A stretch of 64,000 bases of DNA from Crambe crambe (lineage: Eukaryota; Porifera; Demospongiae; Poecilosclerida; Crambeidae): assembly GCA_963924555.1 (NCBI GenBank), contig OZ004596.1, forward strand, positions 5,652,139 to 5,716,138, in the 5' to 3' direction. The position numbers and the translations under genes are program-made. Shown piece by piece: positions 38,122 to 60,318 of the stretch. The notes under the pieces are model-generated. The model did no database searches and had not been told where the DNA came from. It was given only the letters and a program-made list of their open reading frames with translations. How positions within the stretch are numbered: the stretch's first letter is position 1; the number at the start of each line of letters is the position of its first letter.

Positions 38122-41100
38122 ATGGAAGAGATAAGGACCAAACCAGTTGCCCCGCCGCGCAAGGGCAGAAAAAAGAGGCAGCAATCCAGGGATGATGAAG
38201 AAATGCAGAAGAAAATTCCACTTACTCCAACAAAGCAAGCTTCCCCTACAGAAAACGCAGAGCATACTTTCTCCGCTGATGCTATGACAACAAAGCAAAA
38301 ACCTCCCAGGCCACAACCTCCTTCCAAGTACAGTAACTCGCGTTCCTTCTCCAAAATCAGTGCCAGTGCACCTCAGACCCCAAGCAGGTACGATGCAAAA
38401 CACAATGTGCTCAAAGAATCAAAATCTTCTCCAGACACTGCACTAGCAAAGCATTATTATAACTCTGACAGTGGTAGTACTGCAGAAGACACAGGTGGTC
38501 ATCGCAAGAAGAGACATGAGAGTCTGCAGGAAGTAGAGACTCAAGAACCAGGCAGTTCTCCAACTATTATCAATTCCAGGGGAAATGCAGGTGGAGTTTA
38601 TCTCAATGTAGCACCAAAAGCTCCTCAAGGCAAAGGTGCAACAGGGAGCTTAAAGAGAACAAAAAAAACCTTTCAAATTTCACCAACTGAGCATAGAGAT
38701 GGAAGTATGATACCTTCTAGACTGGCTAACTCAAGGGTGAAACTGCAGGATGTGTCAAAGCAACCTGCTCCTTCTGCAGGTACTAGAAGGAGTGCATCTG
38801 ATTCTTCTTCTCCAACCAAACGTGATGCTACTGCTCTTAGCTCAAACAAGAAGACCGGTCATAAACTGACAACAGCTCAGAGTGTTCTCCCACAAATGCA
38901 CCAAGAGCAGTCACATCCCTTTACAAAACAGAATTCCACACCAGACTCAAGACAGTCTTCTGGATATGCTAAAAGACCAGTTCGACCTGCTCCACCTTGT
39001 CCGAGAAAGTTGAAAAATAAGAATTACACGAATGTTACTTCACAGAACATTTCAGGTGGTGGTCCTAGTACGCTCGATTACATGTACGTTGATCCAAGTA
39101 AAATTCGCTATCCTTTACCGATGAGACCAAGTCAAAATGTGGATGGGCTGGTGGACTTGAAGATGGAACGTTATCAGATTGATGAAAAGTTGAGCAGCGA
39201 GGAAGACTCATCTCCTATGATTGATGATGACGATCCCCCTTACGTCATGGACAGTAAGTTGATGTTTTGCACTCAGAGGGTGCTACACTATCAAAAGGCA
39301 AACTTAATCCTTAATTAAAACCCTGATAACCCTTTATTGACTGCATTACTACAGCATTAACCCCATGGGGTGGCCTTTATTGATTAATAAGCCATTGTAA
39401 CGTTTATCCTCTTCAAATTAGATAAACAAATAACTTTCGGTCCTAATTATAGAGGTGATCAAAAGTGTTTACCTTAAGGAGAGTTTGGGGAAGGGGAAGA
39501 CTGAAGCCCGCAAAGTTGCCCAATGGACAGCCTTTGTTATCACCTGTTACATGATGCTATCACTTTTCAATCAGGCTTCATCCCTTTGAGTTCATTATTT
39601 GTGATACCTTAAGTGTGTGATGTGTTGCTACATACAACAGTTGAGCGTTGTACAGACACCTGTCTCAGATTATAATTCTCCACAATTTCATTAGAATTCA
39701 TAACATTAATTTTAACTGTAACAGTTGGACTTTCTTTTGACAAACTAACCAAGGGGAGTTTTGTGATGGTGTAAGTACGCATCTTCTTTTTTTTGCAGTT
39801 TTTTCTCCACCACGTCCTCCTGGGACAACCAAGTCCAACATCTACACCTCACTCGACCCCAAAACCATAAGAGGTATCTAATTATGTGCTGACAACTGAG
39901 TCTTTGGGGGTGTGCAATTGAAGGCCCTGCATGTGTTTGTTCATTCATCCAACCCCAATCCACTTTATCACTTCCAATTCCCACCCGTAAGCTCACCTTA
40001 TAAACTGTTTACCAGATGACACATTAAGCTGGTCAGTTGTATTCTTCTTATGTTGGTGTGTTTACAATAGCATTAAGGTTGCAATGAATGTATTCCCCAT
40101 CTCTTTCCTGTCTTTAGAAGGGATATATACTGTTCCTAATCAGCAGCAGACAGGTGAAGCTCTTTCATTGAACTCAGCCTCGCAAGACAAGAGCAAGGAC
40201 TCAAGACAAAGGTCACATGAGGAGGTGCAACGGTCACATGAGGAGAAGTACACAGCATTTGATGATCTAAAACCACAGAAACCATCAGCTCCATCAAGTA
40301 AAGAAACTATTCAATGATGGTTCAGGGGGAAAATAATGCATTACAAGTTTAGATATCCAACTAGGAGTTGTTTGGTGCAAGGGTTGGAGTTCTTGGAAGT
40401 GAAATTGCTTCTAGATGAACTAAATGGTTCATTTTGTCACCCTACAAGTTTATGCATTGTTTTAAGTTGTTTAACAAACTACAATCTTGCAAATTTTGAG
40501 TAGGGAGTAAGGAGAACTCACATGTGGTATATAATTTTTATATCAGTCTCTATCATTCCCAAATTCATGTGTGGAGGCACTACTTTATGATCAGGTTGCA
40601 TTATGAGCCTATTCCAGTCAGCTAATCTATGTACTGCACTGCAATTCACACATCACTTTTGCAGGTGCTGTGTACATGAATGTGAAGGTGAAGCCAATGG
40701 GCAAGAGCGAATCCTTCACTCTCGATACCTCCTCCTCCTCTCTCACCTCCTCTCCCCCTAACCCCCTGAGCGATGAGGAGGTAGAGTCACCTCAAATGGA
40801 AAATAACTACGTGGCAATTTCCATGGATACCTTGGAAGACCGTGAGTAATTATTATTATCCACACATGCAGCAGGGTTCTCCCCATAATATAATTGTAGT
40901 GGTCAAGCTTACAAGGAAGTGGTTTATACAACTATAAGCTGGCAAAACCTACAAGTTTCTATTCCAGACTTAAGAGTCCTTTATAAGGACAGGGTTAGAT
41001 CAGCACAAAATAGTCTTCCTGTGCACACTTCTTTCAAGTTCTCAAAAATCAATTACAATTGCTGATTCAGCTGTTAGATCTTTGTGGGAGGGTTTAGCTA

Positions 41101-49873: not shown

Positions 49874-51606
49874 CTACTTCTCACGAGGTTGTTGTGGAAG
49901 GTTCTGGTATATTGGTTCTTCCTTCATCAATTCTGTAGAATGCAAATATTAGCTCTGTATGATCGTATGGATCAAGATGGTTTTTGGTATAATAATAACG
50001 ATAGAGTTAATCATGTGGGCTATTCTTCCTGTTGTGAAATCCCCTCAATTAATTAGAGGAATGTAGACTCATTATGATTCTAGCACATGTGTATACCGGT
50101 CTCACCTTGGAAGAAATTATTGCTCTCCCTATCAGCACTCTTGTAATAGGACGGCACTTGAACTTTCTCTTGATCTATTGGGCAGTAAGGACTTGCTGTC
50201 TCTTTAGGAGACTTCTCAAGTGGTCTCTTTAGGAACTCCCCGACCTCTGAAAAGCCACTGTCTCCAGTGCTGCTTGATCCTCCTGTGTGGTCTTCTTCTC
50301 TGATAGCTTCTGTTCAAAGGAAGAAAAGGACATCACAATGAGTGTGTGTGTGTGTGCGTATGCATGGGAATTTCACTTTTATGGACTCTCTGTTTACATA
50401 ATAAATGTGTTTATGGTAATCACATTAATCCTGATTTCCGCATTATCAACTGGTTCTTTTTCCCCCAGTAATCCTCTAGGTCAGAGCTGAGGTGATACTT
50501 ATGTGTGTGTTTAACAACTAAGTGAGACTCAAGACAAAACATCTTGGATTCATAGTACTCACCTAAGAAGTTCTCTTCGGATTTAACCCTTTCTTTCAGC
50601 TTGTCTGGTTTCGGCAGAGGGACAGGTTTATCTCGTTTTGGTGGAGGCAGTGGTGATTTCTTAGCTAGGGGGTGTTTGAGGGCACTTATGACGAGTGCAT
50701 TGCTCTTTGCGGTGGCTGTGTTTTGGGTTTCTGCTGCTATCAGATCTGCAGAGCTGTAGTAAAGTGATTGTGAGGATTTTGGATGGAGAGCTGGTGACAC
50801 TCGTGTTCCCACTTCGATATAGTCACCACTATCGTCTTGTTCAACAGGAATGGGTTTCTTCACAGGTGGAGGGAGAAGAGGCTGTGCTGGATCAGTTGAA
50901 GATGTTTGCTTTCCTGGTGGACTCTTTGAATACTTTTTGGGGGCTATACAAAGGAGATAATTTTATGAACAAGAAGTTGTAAGATTGCAATATTTTAATT
51001 CTAACCTTTTTGTTTGCTGAGAGCTTCAGCTGCCAAGTGCTGCTGCAGTTTCTGATCAAGAGGATTATTTCTCTGGAGGGTGGCAGGTGGTGAGGGACTC
51101 CCTTCTGACTCACTTGAGTCTGGTGAAGTTTGATCATATGCTGCTTTGGCTTCCTTTAACTTAGCCTCCACTTTTACTGCAGCTTCTTCTGCTTCTAACA
51201 ACATCGAACTCAGTGATTTTGGTCCTGCTGCTTCCTTTGCTTTTTCGATATGCTCATTGAGCAGCTTTGCAAATGCCAATGCCACTTCAAGATCCACCAT
51301 TGAATTGGATGTTTCAGTGGATTTAGAGCTCCCCTTTTTGTTGCCTTTCTTTTGTGACTTTACAAAGTCTTTGACTCTCTTCACTAAGTCCATTCTGTTC
51401 ATTGTCCTGAGCAGGTCCTCCAAGCTAGAAGGATCTGTGATTCTTCCTCGTGCCTGCAAGCTGATCAGTACTTGCAACTTTCCAGAGATGTTCTTTGGCA
51501 GTTCCTCTATGAAGGCTATACTTTGTATTTCTTCTTCATGCAACAGATGAGCTATTTCCACCAGTAGCTTTCTGAACTCTCTTTCAAATTCTCTTTCAGA
51601 GGCCAT
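49874..51606 (-). CDS. DED-containing docking adaptor A
   Basis: Exons 51006-51606, 50563-50943, 50106-50309 and 49874-49932 join in one frame to 414 residues, all introns phase 1. Residues ~5-80 form a death effector domain: FRKLLVEIAHLLHEEEIQSI at the start and LLRTMNRMDLVKRVKDFV with the RxDL signature at the end. A charged helical segment (LEAEEAAVKVEAKLKEAKAAY) likely forms a coiled coil. The tail has SH3-ligand stretches (LLPPPVKKPIP, SPLPPPKRDKPVPLPKP) and tyrosine motifs GDYIEVG, SLYYSSAD, SPYCPID, PSYYKSAD and PIYQNLP (YxN) near the end. The third exon carries STGDSGFSE, shared with adaptor C. A cytosolic signalling scaffold is inferred; no caspase, kinase or membrane segment is present. 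Confidence 0.75.
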
Positions 51607-52649
51607 GCTGAAGGTGGACTATAGGATGGCTTACTCTTCTTTTTCGATGTAGAACTTTTTTTTAGCAAGGTAGTGGGACTTCCAGGTATGCATGCAAGCA
51701 CTACTCCAACAGAACATCTATAGATTAGCTATAGCTACTGTGCTGGAGCTGCTCAGAGTGGGCAAACTAGCAACAAAATAATTATGCTCAGGACTATTGC
51801 AACAATGAATTTTATAGTTTGCAAAAACAGGAAATATATTTTAAAAATTTCCCTTATCTGAAGTCCCGTGCTGAACTATGATTGCTTTCCTTATCATGGC
51901 AGATCACACCATTCACGTGAGAGTTTACATAGTAGCCATGCACCACCTACTTATGTCCATAGCCTCAATAACCACAACTATAATTGCAAAAACAATTGAT
52001 TATACTCATTTGTAGTCATATACATCCCATTGCTGCAAATGCTCATATTGAGGGGTTGGAGAGGTAAGGGGTAGAGGGAGATGTGTTAAGGATCCCATTG
52101 TATGCAGCATAATCGTATAGCTACTCTACAAATGCTCATATCGAGGGGTTGGAGAGGTAAGGGGTAGAGGGAGATGTGTGCAGCACAATTGTATAGCTAC
52201 TCTACAAATGCTCATATTGAGGGGTTGGAGGGGTAAGGGGTAGAGGGAGATGTGTTAAGGATCCCATTGTATGCAGCATAATTGTATAGCTGCTCATATT
52301 GAGTAAGAGTTGTTATATTCCTGAAATGTAAAAAAAAAAAAAGAAGAAAAGCTGTTGTAGCTAGCACTATTTCCTTAGACGTCATTTGGTAATGAATAAT
52401 TTTAAGTTTTATTCACGAGGTATGAGATCAGAACAGTCATGAGACAAAGGAAAAGAGAAATGAATTCATAGCTCAAAAAGGAGGAAAGAGATGAGATGTG
52501 TAAGGGAGATTAGCACATGGCGTGAATTATAAGTTTTAAAAAGCTAAAGGGAGCATATAGTGGCTGGTTTTATAAGTATAAACAGGAGATTAAAAATTTT
52601 TTGGCTGAAGGACAAACAATGGAGAACGAATGAAGTGTAAAAATGTTCT
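51607..52649. other. Intergenic region between adaptors A and B
   Basis: 1 kb that must include the promoter of adaptor A and the 3' flank of adaptor B. Apart from the ~100-base minisatellite and a short A run at 52330, nothing is recognised. Confidence 0.6.
52035..52310. repeat. ~95-110-base minisatellite, nearly three copies
   Basis: Repeats of a unit starting AAATGCTCATATTGAGGGGT and containing AAGGGGTAGAGGGAGATGTG and GTATAGCTACTCTAC. The middle copy lacks an internal ~20 bases (AAGGATCCCATTGTATGC). It lies between adaptors A and B. Confidence 0.9.
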
Positions 52650-55600
52650 TTAGTGCTGACTTCCAGGGTCAGTGTATTGGACAGCTGTGTACACTACAGG
52701 AGGGATAGAGAAAGTATTATCAAACATAAAGGTCACCTGACTCACATGAAAGCAAGGCTCAAATGAAAGCAATGCTCACATGAAAGCAAGGCTCACACTC
52801 TTTTAAAGGAGTGTGAGCCTTGCTTTCATATGAGTCAGGTGACCTTTAATATTTCACTGTAGCTTTCTATAATGGTAACCCTTTACCAATTGCAGAGACC
52901 TATGAATGTAGCTACTAGTAGAATATTTACCATCTGGTGCGTCCATGTTGGTTCTGTCCAGTGGTTTGTAAAAATTCAGATCATCAGTATCTGCATGAAA
53001 TAAGCACAATCACCCAGATTTGATCACCATGACCACAGTACATGTCTCCACTGCACACATGCACAAAAGGAATTCCTATTCTAACATTGGACCTTTGGGA
53101 ACTTTAAGTCTGTAGCCATGCAGTCAGTAACTAAGTAGTCAGTATTAGCCTTATACCCAGGTCATCTGTCATGGTCTCCTGTGGATACACACACTGTCCA
53201 TAGCTATATGGGAAATACAGTGTGCAATAGGATTTCCTCTATGGAATCACATGGGAAAGATATCAGAGGGTGGAGCTAGGGGGTTGGCCCATGAAATCTT
53301 TATGTATCTTGGAATATGGTCCCAAATCAGAGGCAAGGATAACTACCTGCTGCACAACAGCAAAAATGAATTATTTGCTCCTTTTGTGTTCAGAATGCCT
53401 TCCTCATTGAACAGTTTAATTTCTGGTTTGGTTGGGGAAGCCTATTCCTACACTTATGCAATGTTTATAAGAATGCATTCCTTGGTAAGCTTCATAACCA
53501 AAACTATTATCTTTGTGGTTACTTATCATGCACCCACATGAAAATATATACTCTGAAGAAGAAGAAAGATGATTAAGAATTAGGTATATAGGGTGTATGG
53601 TCATAAACTATAAAATTGGTCAGTTTTTCCTTGAGTCTATCATCTCAGTCAAGAGCCACCCATGCACTCACCTTTGGTTGGATGGAGAGTGGTATAGTTG
53701 TCATCCATGGCAGGATGCTGTGAAGAACGCTTGACTGAGACAGACTGTGATAACTTGTCTAATTTACTAGGGGGTTTCTTTCTGGGTATGGCCACAGGTG
53801 TGGGAGTGGAGAGCTGCAGGCTTAGAGCTGCATGTGGAAGATAATTATGAAACAGGACAGACATAGAGTAGGTAAGTCAACAAACATTTAAAAAAAGACA
53901 TTTGAGACAGAGAGCTAAGTCAATAACAGTGAGAAATTCCAAAAAAAATTTTTCCATTTAGGAAACCCAAATTGAAAAGCACTGATACTCTAAAAGTAAT
54001 AGTGCAATAACGGAAGCCTTTTCAATTAGCCTGTTATTTAGCACCGGTTGGACTTTCTTCAGCAGATTTCAAGACCAAGGCCATGACTAGCTAAACATGA
54101 AGACAGATGACTCCATCACATGAAAGCCATAACTTCACCTGGTTTTATGTAGTTTTCAGTGTTTTGTGGTTTGGCCCACATATGACTGGCCACTTTCATG
54201 TCTGATGACGTAGTCTCAGCAGCAGCACATTCTTCAGTCGGCTCTTGAGGTATCTTTGTCCACCTTTTGGGGACAACCCCTTCCTCCCTTGTCCTGTCCC
54301 CTGGTCCTGCTTGTTTGTCTTTGTGTAGTCTCGGAGTGAAATAATCCTCTGGTCCCAATGGGAGTACAACGGTGGAGTACTTCACTGGGGCAACATTTTG
54401 CTTCTTCTTTAAGAAAAGTCTTGGGGTGGAATAATCATTGGACTCAGTCGGAGGATTAACTCTGGACTCCTGCCATGATTGTACGTCTGCAGTAACCCCT
54501 GGTTTCATGTGTTCATAGTCATCTTCCTCATCATCGTCCTCTTCTGCGATATCACCTTCTCTCAATTTCTGGAGGGTTTGTGTTGTTTCTGGAAGGGCTG
54601 CTTGTCCACTGCCCTTGTAAAAGTGCACCAGATTGGTGGGAACTGAGGCTGACATCATTGCACTGTAGTAATCTGTAGTTTGTGATGACATTCATAATAA
54701 TATACTGAGATAAAGTATGATGTTTGCTTCCTGCATGCAAACATGTGAAAAACAATTGGTTAATGTGCTCTTGGTATATATTTGTGAAGGTCACGACATT
54801 TCCTCAAAGCAGCTATTCCCATCAAGAAGTAGATAATAATTTTTTTGTGTGTGTGTGTACTGCAGTTTTAGGGAATCATGCAAAAATTAATCATCAGGTA
54901 TCATCCGTAAACTGACTACTACGCATGCGCACTGCTTAAAATTTTGAATTGCACTCAGATTAGAAAGAACTTTAGAGAAGTAAGCTTTGAAGAGCTATCT
55001 AGTGACTGTTCTAGTATAGTTCTAACCTATTAGCATGCCATTCACCTTCTCCGGTGAGATTTTCAAGGCTCGCGAGAATGCACACTCAGCAATTTGCAAG
55101 ACCGCAGTATGTGTGCATATTGCTGATCTAATGGGAATAAATGATATCATTCAGGTTGTTTTCCAAACCAAAACCTCTCCCCCCCACTACTGATAAGGCA
55201 ACTGCGTTATGATCACACCATACAGTATACCAGTCCGAGTTTCGATGCTGACCAAATAGAGCCATTGACCTATTGCTAGTTTATGCCACACTCAAAAGTG
55301 GTGTGATTTGGCGTAAGAAGTTTTTCATGGCACACATAAACCGTAACTCTTTGGAAAATATTCCTGTTTACAGATTTGAGTGTGCGTGAGGTACGTATGA
55401 GTGTGTATGTATTTTAAACTTTGTGGTTACAAATGGAGGTTCTTCACTTGTGAGTATACTAAAGGACTTGCACATAAAAAAGCTATTTATCACAACAGTC
55501 ATCCCAAATAAGGTTGGATGTTTATTCATAAAATACTATCAGTGGAAATACTATCATTGCATTGGGAAGGAGATAACAAGCAGACTGACAAATAAAAATA

Positions 55601-56725
55601 ACGCTGTTAGTGTGCTTCCTACACACTCAATACCACTGCAGCTACACTGACAAACAGCTGAATGAGTATCACTTGTGTCATGGGTAACTGTAGTAATGGA
55701 TAATTGTGTGTCTTTGAGGGTAAGTGAGATATGATAAGGTGCCCAAAGAATACAATCACTGAGTACTTGAATATCTTAAAACAATAACAATCACATTATG
55801 CTCCAATATACAAATACAATAATCTCAATGTTGTGTGTTTTGGCTAGCTAACTGCAAGCCCTGATAACTATTACAGCTAGCACCTATTCATTTGCCATTG
55901 TGTTGGCAAACAGTAAAAGATGTTCTGGGAAGGGGGAGGTTGATATTCTGCAGTTTGATTAGCTGCTTTTCATCATTTTGGAAACCCTTCACCATAGAAC
56001 ACTATAGTGGAGACATTTACAGCTCCAAAACTGTCTAAGAGTTAATTTTTAGTCTCCAATGCACTTAATATATGTATAGCCATGATCATACCTGAACGGG
56101 AAGAATTGATGTAGCCTAATCGTCCACTTCCGGTAGCTCCTTGGTCAGATCCACTGGACAAATGAAAGCTCTCTCTCTCTGGGTTTGCCTTCACCTCTGC
56201 TCTTCGGAGTCGCTCAGCTAGCGCCTCGGATGTCTGGGCAGCCTCTGTGATCAGCTGCATGATCCTGTCTCTTTGTATGGTAATTCCCGACGTAGCAATT
56301 TGGAGTCTTTCCATCTGCTGCAAGAGAACGGTGGCCTGCACAAATGCAGCTTCAAGTGTAGCTCTCAATACCAGATCATCTTCACTCTCATCATGAACTC
56401 TACCACTGTCTGGCTTGTTAGCCTTTTTTTCTGGTGATTTTTTCCTTTTCTTGAAGAAATCTTTGACTTCATTGACCAGATCTTGTCTTTTTAGGTCTTT
56501 CATCAACTCTAGGAGTTTCTCTGGGTGGCTGGCAGTGATAATTCCATTTGATTCTAGTTTGCAGAAGATTTCAAGTGGAGTGCAGCTCTTGTACTGATCC
56601 TTTTGGTTGTAGAAGTGGATGTACACTATAGCTTGTGCTTCTTCCTTCTTGAGTTTTTTAGACAGACTGTAGATCAAACGTCTGAAGGCCAGAAATTGTT
56701 GATTTGACTCAGCTGTGACTTCCAT
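52650..56725 (-). CDS. DED-containing docking adaptor B
   Basis: Exons 56092-56725, 54139-54672, 53672-53827, 52931-52990 and 52650-52693 join to exactly 475 residues, all introns phase 1. The N-terminal DED runs from FRRLIYSLSKKLKKEEAQAI to LLELMKDLKRQDLVNEVKDF (RxDL motif). A helical region (LLQQMERLQIATSG, AAQTSEALAERLRRAEVKAN) follows. The tail has at least twelve tyrosines in docking-like contexts: GYINSS (YxN), DYYSAMM, DDYEHMKP (YxxM, the PI3K-SH2 type), NDYSTPR, KYSTVV, EDYFTPR, ENYIKPG, DNYTTLH, NFYKPL, VYTAV and QYTDP. A proline/basic segment VAIPRKKPPSKLDK also occurs. The ATG at 56725 is preferred because the DED starts soon after; an in-frame codon further upstream adds an unlikely 21 residues. 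Middle member of the cluster. Confidence 0.75.
52728..52847. repeat. Long hairpin (perfect 21-bp stem, 8-base loop) with outer arms
   Basis: 52780-52800 is the exact inverse of 52809-52829 around the loop TTTTAAAG. Outer arms 52728-52760 and 52815-52847 (AAAGGTCACCTGACTCA...) pair over 33 bases with one mismatch. The left side carries three direct copies of ATGAAAGCAA(G/T)GCTC. It lies in the last intron of adaptor B. Either a small palindromic element or a folded RNA. Confidence 0.85.
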
Positions 56726-57157
56726 GGTGTAGCTAGCCAGACCAAGTTGGAATACACCTTTAGAAGTTAATTCAACCACATATAGCACTGGTTTATAGTC
56801 CTTGAGTACTCAGACTAATTCTGTAGTTCTAGCTGGTTTAAGATGATATGCTATGGCTTAGCCTAGCTAGCTGTTGTCAATACTCTAGCTATTCTATTTT
56901 GAGAAGTGTTTTTGAGGGGGTGGAGTTAAAACACTATGAATATCATTATAGCATACAATTATTATGGCTAGCCTATTACATCATCATTGCCAAGTTCATG
57001 CCTTATCCAGTGCATGCATGCTTATGAACCCCTCTCCTCCCCCCATTCCTGTATTGCATTATATTATTATTATAATTATGGTTCAGTAATATTGTTTATT
57101 GCATTGAGAATGGATCTGAGTTATAGTTAGATGAGATATCTGCATGGCTGTTCTTCA
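56726..57157. other. Intergenic region between adaptors B and C
   Basis: 432 bases, AT-rich, with no gene seen. It presumably holds the adaptor B promoter and adaptor C 3' flank. Confidence 0.6.
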
Positions 57158-60100
57158 TCACCTGAAGTCTCTCTTTGGAACTGAGTAGATATTTGGTGCT
57201 GTAGAGATGAAGAGAAAAAAAATCATGCTTTGAGTCATTAGAAACTGAAGAACATGGCCGGAGGCACTACTGTGAGCCAGCTGGTACGGCCATGGCTGTA
57301 CCAACATTCAGAGTTGTTTTTTTTTGTTTTGTTTCGTTGTGTGTGTGTCTGCACGTGTCTGTGTGTAACGTTTTAGTTCATTGTACCAGATACCAGATTA
57401 AATCTAATATTGGAAGGCTTTCCCCAGACCCCCCTTCAAGATGGTAGCTATAATTATGGCTGTACCACTATAAATGAGCTTCTCTGGCTTTCAGAATGCT
57501 GGCCAGAGGGGGGAGCATAAGACTCATGAATGACAACCCCTCTGTAATGCAGTTGATTTTAAGTGCTATAATGTATCAGTTGTTCTTTGAAGCCTTTCTT
57601 ACAATAGTAGCTGTCATTGCCCAGTACCCACACTCTGCAAAACCTTTTGGCTTCTGTAAAAAGGACCATTTCATAAGCTGGAAGTATGTATGAGCCCTCT
57701 GGCGAGCTAGACTAATGTAAACAACCATCTCTGTGTGTGTACTGTTAAACTGCTGATCTGTTACAGCTTTCTGTGCTCACCGTTAGTGAATTTATTTGGT
57801 GTGGTATAGATGTGTTCTTGGCTCAATGACGATCCTACAACAATAAAAGGGAGAAAAGTAAATTAACAGGAGTCCTTTAAAAGAGTTGGTAGTTATTTTG
57901 CTCACTTTGATCGGTGGTTTCTCTTAGGAATTCAGTGGGATCACTGAAGCCACTGTCTCCTGTGCCACTAGTGTGGCTTGCTTCGATGTCTCCACTTCTT
58001 GTTAGTGATGATTCACTGCTTCTTGTAGACTCAGTGCTTTTTGGCAGTGATGTTTTCTTTCTCAGAACTGGAATGTTAGAGCCCTGATGTCCTCCAAGCA
58101 GGTTGTCCACTGAATCGATAGGTTTTGTGAGGGAGATACAGAAAGAAAAGATAAATGTCTTGTACTGTGCTTTGGCTTGTATTTCAAGATCACATTATGT
58201 AACACTAACTACTAGCTAACTCTGATTTCCGATTGCACCTGTGACCATACATGTATCACTTCAAGGCAGAGCTGTGGTAAGCGAAATTGACCACTCTGTC
58301 CAGGAAATGGGTGTGGCTACAAATGTTACGATCGATCTCAACACCACAAGGCACCCGTGGTATGCACGGCATTGCAGTTTTGGCTCAGGTGTCCAAAGGG
58401 ATGAGAGCTACCCATGGTGAGGGGGTTTTAAGGGCTACACATACCTCAGACAAAAGGATAACTCTTCTACAAAAGAACTAAGTGGTTTTTCTGCTTATCT
58501 CTATGTATCGATGTCCTTTATGAAACTTCTATTTCTAAACTTGCCAGGCACTTTGGCACCCTCAGAAATAACAATTAGGTAAATAGCTGTAACCTTATTT
58601 AGTTCTTCTTAACTGCTTACTTTCCTTGTTGATTTATAGTAACATAAAGGTCAGCTGCACACAATCATTCTTGTTTTTACCTGATCTGGACTGAAAATCA
58701 GATAATTTCCTCTGCACAGATGGTGTAGTTGGAACGGAATTGCCTGAGTTTGTCTCGTGAACTCTATCACCTAGTCGTATGTTCAAAGGAAACGTAATTG
58801 ATCCTTCACTTAGTTTGTGCTTCTGCTTTGAGTGATGCTGGTGGCTGTTGTGCTGTGTTTCCAAGTTGGAACCGACAAAGTAATGTGCTCTGCTTTCATC
58901 GACATCCAACACCAATTGAGAAGATTCTTGTTTGCTTTGGAGTGGGCAGAGATTATCATAGTCGCTTTCACTTGCCACTGCAGGGTGACTTCGCATTTGT
59001 TGGAGGTGACTAGTGTTTTGGTAGACTTTTGGCGTTGCTGAGACCTGGTATGGTCCTCTGGCTTGTTGTGACTTAAGAATGTGTGTACTGGAATGGGACA
59101 TCTTGGAAAAATTCCCTCCTTGCTTTGAACTAGCTGGTCTGCTGCCAGGTCTGGCAAGAAACGGTTTCTCTTCATCTGCATACAGGCAATAATACCACAT
59201 AAACAAAAAAAAATAATATAAACAATGTAGCTATGGCTACTGCATTATATAAGGGGCCATAGATAAATAGGTGACCACACCTATAATGAGACCACCTCTC
59301 TATTAAGGCCAACAGCACCCATTACAAGCTATTTCGACCTCCAAAGAGACCACCCACACCTTGTTGTTCCTCAGGTTTCACTATCATGATTCACCCAGTA
59401 AGGGCAGCACTGATATTTTCACTCAATATAATGGGCAGTACCAATATTTTCATGGTGGCTGCCATGGTCTATGGAGGTTAGCAATATAATGCAGCACAAC
59501 AGCTGGCATGCAGGTATCGAGTAAACAGAACATTCCTGCATGCATTAGTTTGATTGTACGCATTATCTTTACTTCCTTGAATGGGAGAAATGGGTGATGC
59601 ACGACCAGTGGCTCTGGCACAAAAAGGGCAAACTCCACTCTTTGAGTTGTAGTGATATAATAATCATTACCATAAAGATATGCATGTTTCTGGCTATATC
59701 ACCTTTTTAGAACAAAAAAGTTATGGAACTTGATTTCCTCATTCGAATCGTGCATTTTAATCCTCGTACACAAGCTCTATAGTTATTGAGTCTGTGTATG
59801 AGGCTACATGCATCTCAACATACACATACACACTGGTCTTCCTAATCATCATCCTTCTTACTTGATTTTCTCCTCTGTTGCATTTCTGAAAGGGGTTGGA
59901 TGAGAAAACTTTTAGCCTCGCTCTGCACCTTTTCCACTCTTTCGCTGATTTTGCTGCAGAACAGTCTTTCAGTTGGAGAGCACTCTTGCTTGCTGCAGAA
60001 ATCAAGCAGGTCATCTCTGATGGATGCCAGTTGCTTCTCAATTGAGATAGCCTGGATATAACAAAGTTCTAGTCTTCCTTCATCTGGATATTTGATTTTA

Positions 60101-60318
60101 TCTAGCAAGTCACATCTCTGTATGTTCTTAAGAACATCTTTTAGTCCTTCAATATTTCTTGAAGAAAACTCTCCTCTGCTTTCCAGTATCCTCAAGATGT
60201 GCAAATTTGAGGCCTTTTCTGCAACTATTCCATAGATATATGTCAACGCTTCAATATTTTGTGGGGTTAGCTGCTGTGAGATGTTGAACACTAGCTTTGA
60301 AAACTCATCTGCACTCAT
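57158..60318 (-). CDS. DED-containing docking adaptor C
   Basis: Exons 59862-60318, 58681-59175, 57906-58109, 57781-57834 and 57158-57198 join in frame to 416 residues, again with only phase-1 introns. The DED runs from FSKLVFNISQQLTPQNIEAL to LKDVLKNIQRCDLLDKIKY (RxDL motif). A helical stretch (ISIEKQLASIRDDLLDF, KISERVEKVQSEAKSFL) follows. The tail is histidine-, serine- and glutamine-rich, with tyrosine motifs GPYQVS, KVYQNTS and SDYDNLC (both YxN), HYFVGS, HIYTTP and NIYSVP. The third exon is 204 bases, the same length as the third exon of adaptor A, and carries GTGDSGFSD followed by EFLR. Likely a paralogue of A. No catalytic domain is visible. Confidence 0.74.

Follow-up and report, generated by a model that had tools for sequence, protein, structure and literature searches.

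What would a protein that begins with a death effector domain (DED) do with a long tail rich in tyrosines? The question is raised by three neighbouring genes, A, B and C, on the minus strand of a 64,000-nucleotide stretch of the Crambe crambe genome (the window). A preliminary description read them as DED scaffolds coupling death-fold assembly to tyrosine-kinase signalling, an interpretation that is, overall, partly supported by the analysis reported here. Are the N-termini DEDs? Do the tails belong to the same genes? And could the tyrosines in them serve as docking sites? The cluster lies exactly where it had been placed: gene A has its start codon at 60318, and the stop codon of gene C ends at 49874 (Table 1). 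A docking-like gene free of a DED is its neighbour at 38122-40841. The genome holds a silicatein-like exon with the active-site motif CGSSYAFS, whose best PDB match is silicatein alpha (E 1.2e-13), followed by cathepsin L (3.4e-12); this single exon is in keeping with a sponge origin.

Table 1. Features of the three-gene cluster, in positions of the window
Feature	Positions	Strand	Details
Gene A	57158..60318	(-)	5 exons: 60318-59862, 59175-58681, 58109-57906, 57834-57781, 57198-57158; 416 aa; 4/4 introns GT-AG, phase 1
DED of gene A (RCDLL)	60091..60303	(-)	PF01335 43.0 bits (genome scan), 42.0 (hmmscan)
Gene A helical hairpin after DED, residues 80-149	59872..60081	(-)	AlphaFold2 model
Gene A tail exon 2	58681..59175	(-)	YQNT (codon 59023-59021), YDNL (58960-58958)
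Gene A tail exon 3, 204 bp	57906..58109	(-)	has the TGDSGFSDPTEFL motif; homologue of exon 3 in gene C
Gene A exons 4 and 5	57158..57834	(-)	HIYTTPN and NIYSVPK
Gene B	52650..56725	(-)	5 exons: 56725-56092, 54672-54139, 53827-53672, 52990-52931, 52693-52650; 475 aa; 4/4 introns GT-AG, phase 1
DED of gene B (RQDLV)	56456..56686	(-)	PF01335 40.4 bits (genome scan), 38.5 (hmmscan)
Gene B tail exon 2	54139..54672	(-)	YSAM, YEHM (codon 54517-54515), YSTP, YFTP, YIKP
Gene C	49874..51606	(-)	4 exons: 51606-51006, 50943-50563, 50309-50106, 49932-49874; 414 aa; 3/3 introns GT-AG, phase 1
DED of gene C (RMDLV)	51358..51576	(-)	PF01335 37.3 bits (genome scan), 34.7 (hmmscan); predicted fold match
Gene C two long helices after DED, residues 99-160	51127..51312	(-)	AlphaFold2 model
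Gene C tail exon 2	50563..50943	(-)	YIEV; proline-rich basic segments
Gene C tail exon 3, 204 bp	50106..50309	(-)	has the TGDSGFSEVGEFL motif; homologue of exon 3 in gene A
Gene C last exon	49874..49932	(-)	EEPIYQNLP (codon 49909-49907)

A six-frame scan of the genome (143.1 Mb, 119 contigs) for PF01335 found one match in each of the three genes, all above the cut-off, in line with the RxDL-type signatures from which the domain had first been recognised. In hmmscan of the exons (cut-off 35.9), A and B were over and C, at 34.7, slightly below. Profile comparison of the DED matched cFLIP, caspase-8 and FADD; all 24 members of the alignments matched PF01335 at E<=0.01, and the R-x-D-[LF] signature is present in 24 of 24 aligned DED-exon rows, once as RRDF. 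As for the six-helix death fold, a DED fold is predicted for the N-terminus of gene C, with PEA-15 among its closest folds; a plain Foldseek search with this model returned nothing at E<=0.001 (best 0.049). The fold search with the gene A model placed the DED on top, yet with weak matches. The charge triad of DEDs includes an acidic residue in helix 2. Aligned to FLIP by eye, this position is Glu in B and C, Asp in a fourth paralog (gene D, see below) and Asn in gene A, with Asp in six of nine A-type relatives. As far as sequence can tell, the N-termini of A, B and C are certainly real DEDs, and that of gene C is predicted to adopt the DED fold.

The helical second part that had been ascribed to these proteins reappears in the AlphaFold2 models of A and C, where two long helices are predicted after the DED (residues 80-109 and 115-149 in A, 99-126 and 128-160 in C). 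The KQECSPTER stretch of the gene A hairpin is retained in seven of the nine A-type relatives in the alignment. When the A-type alignment was compared by profile with a mostly D-type one, the DED alone aligned and the hairpins did not, and the region past the DED matched no consistent Pfam family in the family alignments, apart from isolated weak hits, each in one member or two. TRADD-N, the corresponding feature of DEDD and DEDD2, had no Pfam match there, where only helices are predicted, and a remote TRADD-N could escape Pfam.

Does the tail belong to the gene that encodes the DED? All 11 introns of the three models are GT-AG and all are phase 1. Under a generic matrix the splice sites mostly score well, the acceptors of gene A exon 3 (-0.8) and gene B exon 2 (0.2) being weak. 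Scored with codon usage taken from nine other open frames, the eight internal tail exons (A2-A4, B2-B4, C2, C3) all give a positive score without stops when read in the modelled frame, while their remaining frames on both strands are negative; the DED exons A1, B1 and C1 are also coding in their frame; the introns scored (10 of 11) are negative in all forward frames, and the last exons are too short for such scoring. Among 45 cross-gene exon pairs compared against shuffles, A3 and C3, 204 bp each, align over HTxG...TGDSGFSxxxEFL with a score of 63 (maximum 47 in 300 shuffles). One other pair, B4-5 with C3, reached p<0.02, its score of 33 against a shuffle value of 31 being as by chance. A search of the genome with C3 found only C3 itself, so the A3-C3 homology is a result of the pairwise shuffle test alone. 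Since A and C have this homologous tail exon, the tails are tied to the DEDs, and because all introns are phase 1, the coding frames are kept and A3 and C3 are homologous, DED and tail are, on these gene models, one gene in A, B and C. It is highly improbable that the tail exons come from other genes, the DED exon forming a short gene by itself that ends in the first intron. The proteins returned by DED-exon searches do look, by eye, like single-exon frames running into introns, as this alternative would have it, but against it stand the phase-1 junctions in all three genes, the equal exon order in A and C, the absence of a Pfam domain from the five tail exons scanned, and the relatives of gene D, in which the D1-D2 junction sequence is, by eye, uninterrupted.

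The tails themselves are 214-264 residues long and, judged from composition only, disordered. Their proline-rich and basic character (P 6-14%, K+R 12-15%) is as first described, and so are the 6 to 12 tyrosines (6 in A, 12 in B, 8 in C), with an additional YINS at the end of the first exon of B; YINS, YQNL, YQNT, YDNL and YEHM all fall within the gene models. No Pfam family but the DED was found at E<=0.01 by hmmscan of exons A1-A3, B1, B2 and C1-C3; the remaining exons (A4, A5, B3-B5 and C4) are short, of at most 52 residues each.

Are the tyrosine motifs more frequent than chance would give? Tail sequences were shuffled globally, or locally with composition kept in 20-40-residue blocks. YxN and YxxM together occur 5 times in the tails of A-C against 1.3 expected from global shuffling (p 0.007), 6 against 1.4 with YINS counted (p 0.001), and 5 against 1.7-2.1 under local shuffling (p 0.02-0.04). 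With gene D included there are 7 against 1.7 (p 0.001 global, 0.004-0.009 local); the YQNV of the gene D linker, which is not kept in D-type relatives, was left uncounted. The reversed motifs number 3 in A-C (p 0.15) and 4 in A-D (p 0.09). Gene by gene, the excess is significant in A (p 0.044) and in D (p 0.047), and not in B (0.15) or C (0.24). YxN/YxxM motifs in the A-C tails are modestly above chance, and what had been claimed about SH2 docking motifs holds for the pooled excess, not for B or C singly. Taken together, A-C carry several SH2-consensus tyrosines in a candidate disordered tail. The further claim of SH3 docking does not survive: PxxP occurs 8 times against 7.1 expected from shuffling (p 0.43), which is no excess.

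A wider motif set including YxxP, which joined after the sequence had been read and was absent from the preliminary description, gives 11 against 3.8 in A-C, and its reversed counterpart 10 against 4.0 (p 0.004). Because the reversed control matches YxxP, the wider set overstates the docking case, and YxxP was dropped as docking evidence. Under this set A (p 0.003) and B (0.006) are enriched, and C (0.76) and D (0.34) are not. Its controls were twelve rows beyond A-D. Four of them, the C-terminal regions of tandem-DED proteins, show no excess (p 0.52-0.91), and four window frames whose coding status is uncertain give p 0.50-1.0. The others are a DED exon 2 and the docking-like candidates L019, E2 and the DED-free neighbour at 38122-40841, this neighbour being enriched (p 0.006). 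These controls are weak because the wider set is unspecific. Two candidates for further DED genes with docking tails, E (L011 7350, DPIYSEPYTAV) and L019 (VYENIPPP), were rejected, their tails not being enriched (p 0.44 and 0.49).

What, then, are the tails for? The reading we put forward, tentatively and at slightly less than an even chance, is that A-C form a sponge family of DED adaptors with a phosphotyrosine docking tail, on the plan of BCAP except that the assembly domain is a DED. The N-terminal DED would join or nucleate DED assemblies, its likely partners being the DED-caspases of the same genome, and the helical hairpin would space or dimerise the protein. Src-type kinases would phosphorylate the disordered tail, and its YxN and YxxM sites, once phosphorylated, would recruit Grb2- and p85-type SH2 proteins. 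A death-fold platform would in this way gather survival or growth signalling as well, much as BCAP does with its TIR domain. Is the machinery for this present? The genome has at least 135 SH2 exon matches (150 of 166 candidates scored), three open frames on contig C15 (2906819-2913224) with an SH2 followed by a kinase domain, and, on C16, caspase-domain exons directly preceded by tandem DED exons, of which there are two pairs. Caspase-domain matches number 46 in the genome and none in the window, the nearest lying 52 kb outside it (C19, 5599735). The docking proposal is supported because both the motifs and this machinery (SH2-kinase frames, SH2 exons, DED-caspases) are present; a docking function of the tails is a plausible guess from their sequence. 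The SH2-then-kinase order on C15, where the SH2 and kinase domains only were read, is that of Src-type kinases.

Is the cluster alone? Gene D, the fourth paralog, lies on the same contig 3.2 Mb away. Its DED is followed by a helical-looking stretch, then by a proline-rich exon that holds VIYMNT and VDSGLG, and then by the last exon; of its three introns the first is phase 0 and the others are phase 1. The last exon of D reads ENQYMNLP and that of C IYQNLP, YxNLP being common to both. A protein-collection search with five DED exons as queries (E<=0.1, 8000 candidates scored) returned at least 23 proteins. Two of them, P0002 and P0004, come from the window itself, and P0003 equals gene D of the same genome over 196 residues. 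The other 20 among the matches listed comprise nine A-type relatives, of which P0021 is at 34% and the rest at 53-62%, ten D-type relatives at 42-62% and a single C-type relative at 42%, with no clearly B-type relative among them. The C-type P0001 and the A-type P0020 may be linked in another genome too, because the longest contig given for both has 2,545,390 bases. No relatives of the A- and D-type DED exons were confirmed in viral contigs, nor of the A-type exon in prokaryote contigs. That these genes form a family is thus upheld by paralog D and by DED-exon relatives in other assemblies.

Whether tyrosine-rich tails accompany these DEDs elsewhere is a different matter: tail exon A2, searched in a large protein collection, found only P0024, a 98% identical copy, among 14 candidates. 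The strongest point against docking is that this search, with A2 as the one tail exon covered, gave no sign of tail sites conserved between species. A DED exon conserved between assemblies beside a tail exon found only as a near-identical copy suits another view, in which A-C are FLIP-like or PEA-15-like decoys that only cap DED filaments and the tails are disordered, evolve fast and hold tyrosines by accident; the clustering of Y near P and N, which lifts the reversed motifs too, points the same way. Yet coding frames are maintained across the internal tail exons, and paralogs still share one homologous tail exon as well as last exons that resemble each other, which makes decoys unlikely. Could the tail instead regulate the DED protein itself, through Ser/Thr phosphorylation or turnover as in PEA-15? 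The tail element best conserved between A and C is the DSGFS exon rather than a tyrosine site, and this exon would then be the working element (degron-like or kinase-docking, for example); gene D carries VDSGLG, PEA-15 is close in fold to the gene C DED, and the tyrosine-motif enrichment is modest. Such self-regulation is nevertheless rather doubtful, as the YxN/YxxM excess is directional, the reversed motifs not being significant, and YxNLP stands in the last exon of both C and D.

Which known proteins do these genes recall? PEA-15 also has a single DED and a C-terminal tail; its tail is short and Ser-phosphorylated, whereas those of A-C are far longer and carry tyrosines. FADD has a C-terminal death domain, and none was found in exons A1-A3, B1, B2 and C1-C3. 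Caspase-8 and FLIP combine a tandem DED with a caspase-like domain; A-C have one DED, no protease and many tail tyrosines. To our knowledge no vertebrate protein has a single DED and a multi-tyrosine disordered tail, and for this form the initial claim that vertebrates lack a DED joined to a docking tail still stands. Taken more broadly it has to be qualified in view of caspase-8: in the portion of the paper available, Src phosphorylates Y380, tyrosine-phosphorylated caspase-8 interacts with PI3K, and a YXXM retained in one of the isoforms is described as a potential SH2 site, so that a DED protein is linked to tyrosine kinases there too (PMC11853578).

The docking-adaptor reading takes its model from BCAP (PIK3AP1). 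BCAP has TIR, DBB and ankyrin parts; A-C carry instead a DED followed by a helical hairpin, and neither TIR nor DBB had a Pfam match in the eight exons scanned. Common to both is an assembly domain, of innate immunity in BCAP, joined to tyrosine motifs and proline-rich regions, through which BCAP binds p85, NCK and GRB2 according to the accessible text (PMC6937578). The same text shows that motifs can mislead, because the YPNT of BCAP, favoured by peptide arrays, proved not to be the Grb2 SH2 site in the protein (PMC6937578). Engineered chimeras of a DED with an SH2 or PTB domain can redirect kinase signalling to apoptosis and likewise couple tyrosine-kinase to DED/caspase signalling (cited in the part seen of PMC2575513); they carry the binding domains, whereas A-C are natural and have candidate docking sites instead. 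In sponges, as far as the excerpts available go, FADD and CASP8 of Amphimedon were tested as part of a basal DISC, in which work the sponge adaptor proved supersaturable (PMC13012725), seven DED proteins are given for Dysidea avara (PMC12909245) and "many" for two haplosclerids (PMC4704026), and DED-TRADD-N proteins are known in other animals (PMC8195603). The available parts of the last three accounts describe no tails of the A-C kind. Nor was a DED with a phosphotyrosine docking tail found in the open-access literature, as far as its texts were available; most subscription journals lay outside this scope.

What is new here may be, on present sequence evidence, DED adaptors carrying possible phosphotyrosine docking tails. 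A bolder version, which is possible though doubtful, is that a system of several genes occurs naturally in sponges, with a DED joined to a docking tail so that death-fold and Src/PI3K/Grb2 signalling meet on one protein; the tails would be made of interchangeable phase-1 exons, the short ones in many cases with one tyrosine motif, in a design common to the DED-free gene at 38122-40841. If the docking reading is true, these genes would show death-fold assembly wired in nature to tyrosine-kinase signalling, in an early-branching animal lineage. The DED-SH2 chimeras made by engineering would have their natural counterpart, BCAP would have its DED version, and the timing of the coupling between death platforms and kinase signalling would become testable with peptides and recombinant proteins.

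Docking-type motifs in the window also occur outside the genes that carry a death effector domain (DED, PF01335). A DED-free gene has VYLNV, NYTNV, IYTVPN and VYMNV, and its motif excess (p 0.006) was obtained with a wider set of YxN, YxxM and YxxP motifs that is not specific. It lies on the strand opposite to gene C, one of the three adjacent DED genes with tyrosine-bearing tails (A, B and C), which is 9 kb from the last exon found; the DED-free gene may extend past 40841. Genes A and C have in common a TGDSGFSxxxEFL motif, degron-like in appearance; gene D, the paralog 3.2 Mb away on the same contig, has VDSGLG. Gene A is adjoined by a phosphatidylinositol transfer protein exon.

Features in the window and at loci elsewhere in the genome (L numbers, own coordinates)
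Feature	Location	Strand	Remarks
TGDSGFSxxxEFL motif	window 58109-57906 (A), 50309-50106 (C)	-	
Phosphatidylinositol transfer protein exon	window 61102-60770	-	PF02121 E 7e-13
DED-free gene, docking-type motifs	window 38122-40841	+	motifs on phase-1 exons
Protein kinase frame directly upstream of DED exon	L011 3634-4629, L010 208-1236		both copies of duplicated C14 stretch
Three tandem DED exons, cytidine/dCMP deaminase-like exons after each	L013 1229-6733 (C17:2355001-2364500)		
DED exons, then disordered exons and MATH/TRAF-like exon	L011 4693-7171, L016 1074-5672, L017 6615-7499		
DED exon, then phase-1 exon with DPIYSEPYTAV	L011 7350-8203		
853-aa frame, DED and long tail with VYENIPPP	L019 3080-5638	-	PF01335 31.1 bits, below cut-off

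Which other DED genes carry such tails? The DPIYSEPYTAV gene is a further candidate for a DED-docking gene, its tail showing no enrichment of docking motifs with the same wider set. In the 853-aa frame a second DED was seen by eye. Tandem-DED proteins at five loci (L002 and L003, near-identical copies on contig C15, and L005, L006 and L007) have about 315-366 residues more (four measured), with no docking-tail signal.

Elsewhere DED exons stand beside exons of other kinds. The kinase frame at L011 matches PF00069 (E 4.9e-36) and that at L010 is near-identical, judged by eye. The MATH/TRAF-like exon reaches MATH_2 E 2.3e-4 at L011, below the family cut-off, was recognised by eye only at L016 and has no Pfam match at L017. 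At L013, two of the three DED exons come from the PF01335 genome-scan list and the third was found by eye; in the first gene, the scan covered two exons and gave PF00383 at E 6.8e-6 (26.3 bits, cut-off 25) in one and E 0.017 in the other. These genes are possible DED-deaminase fusions.
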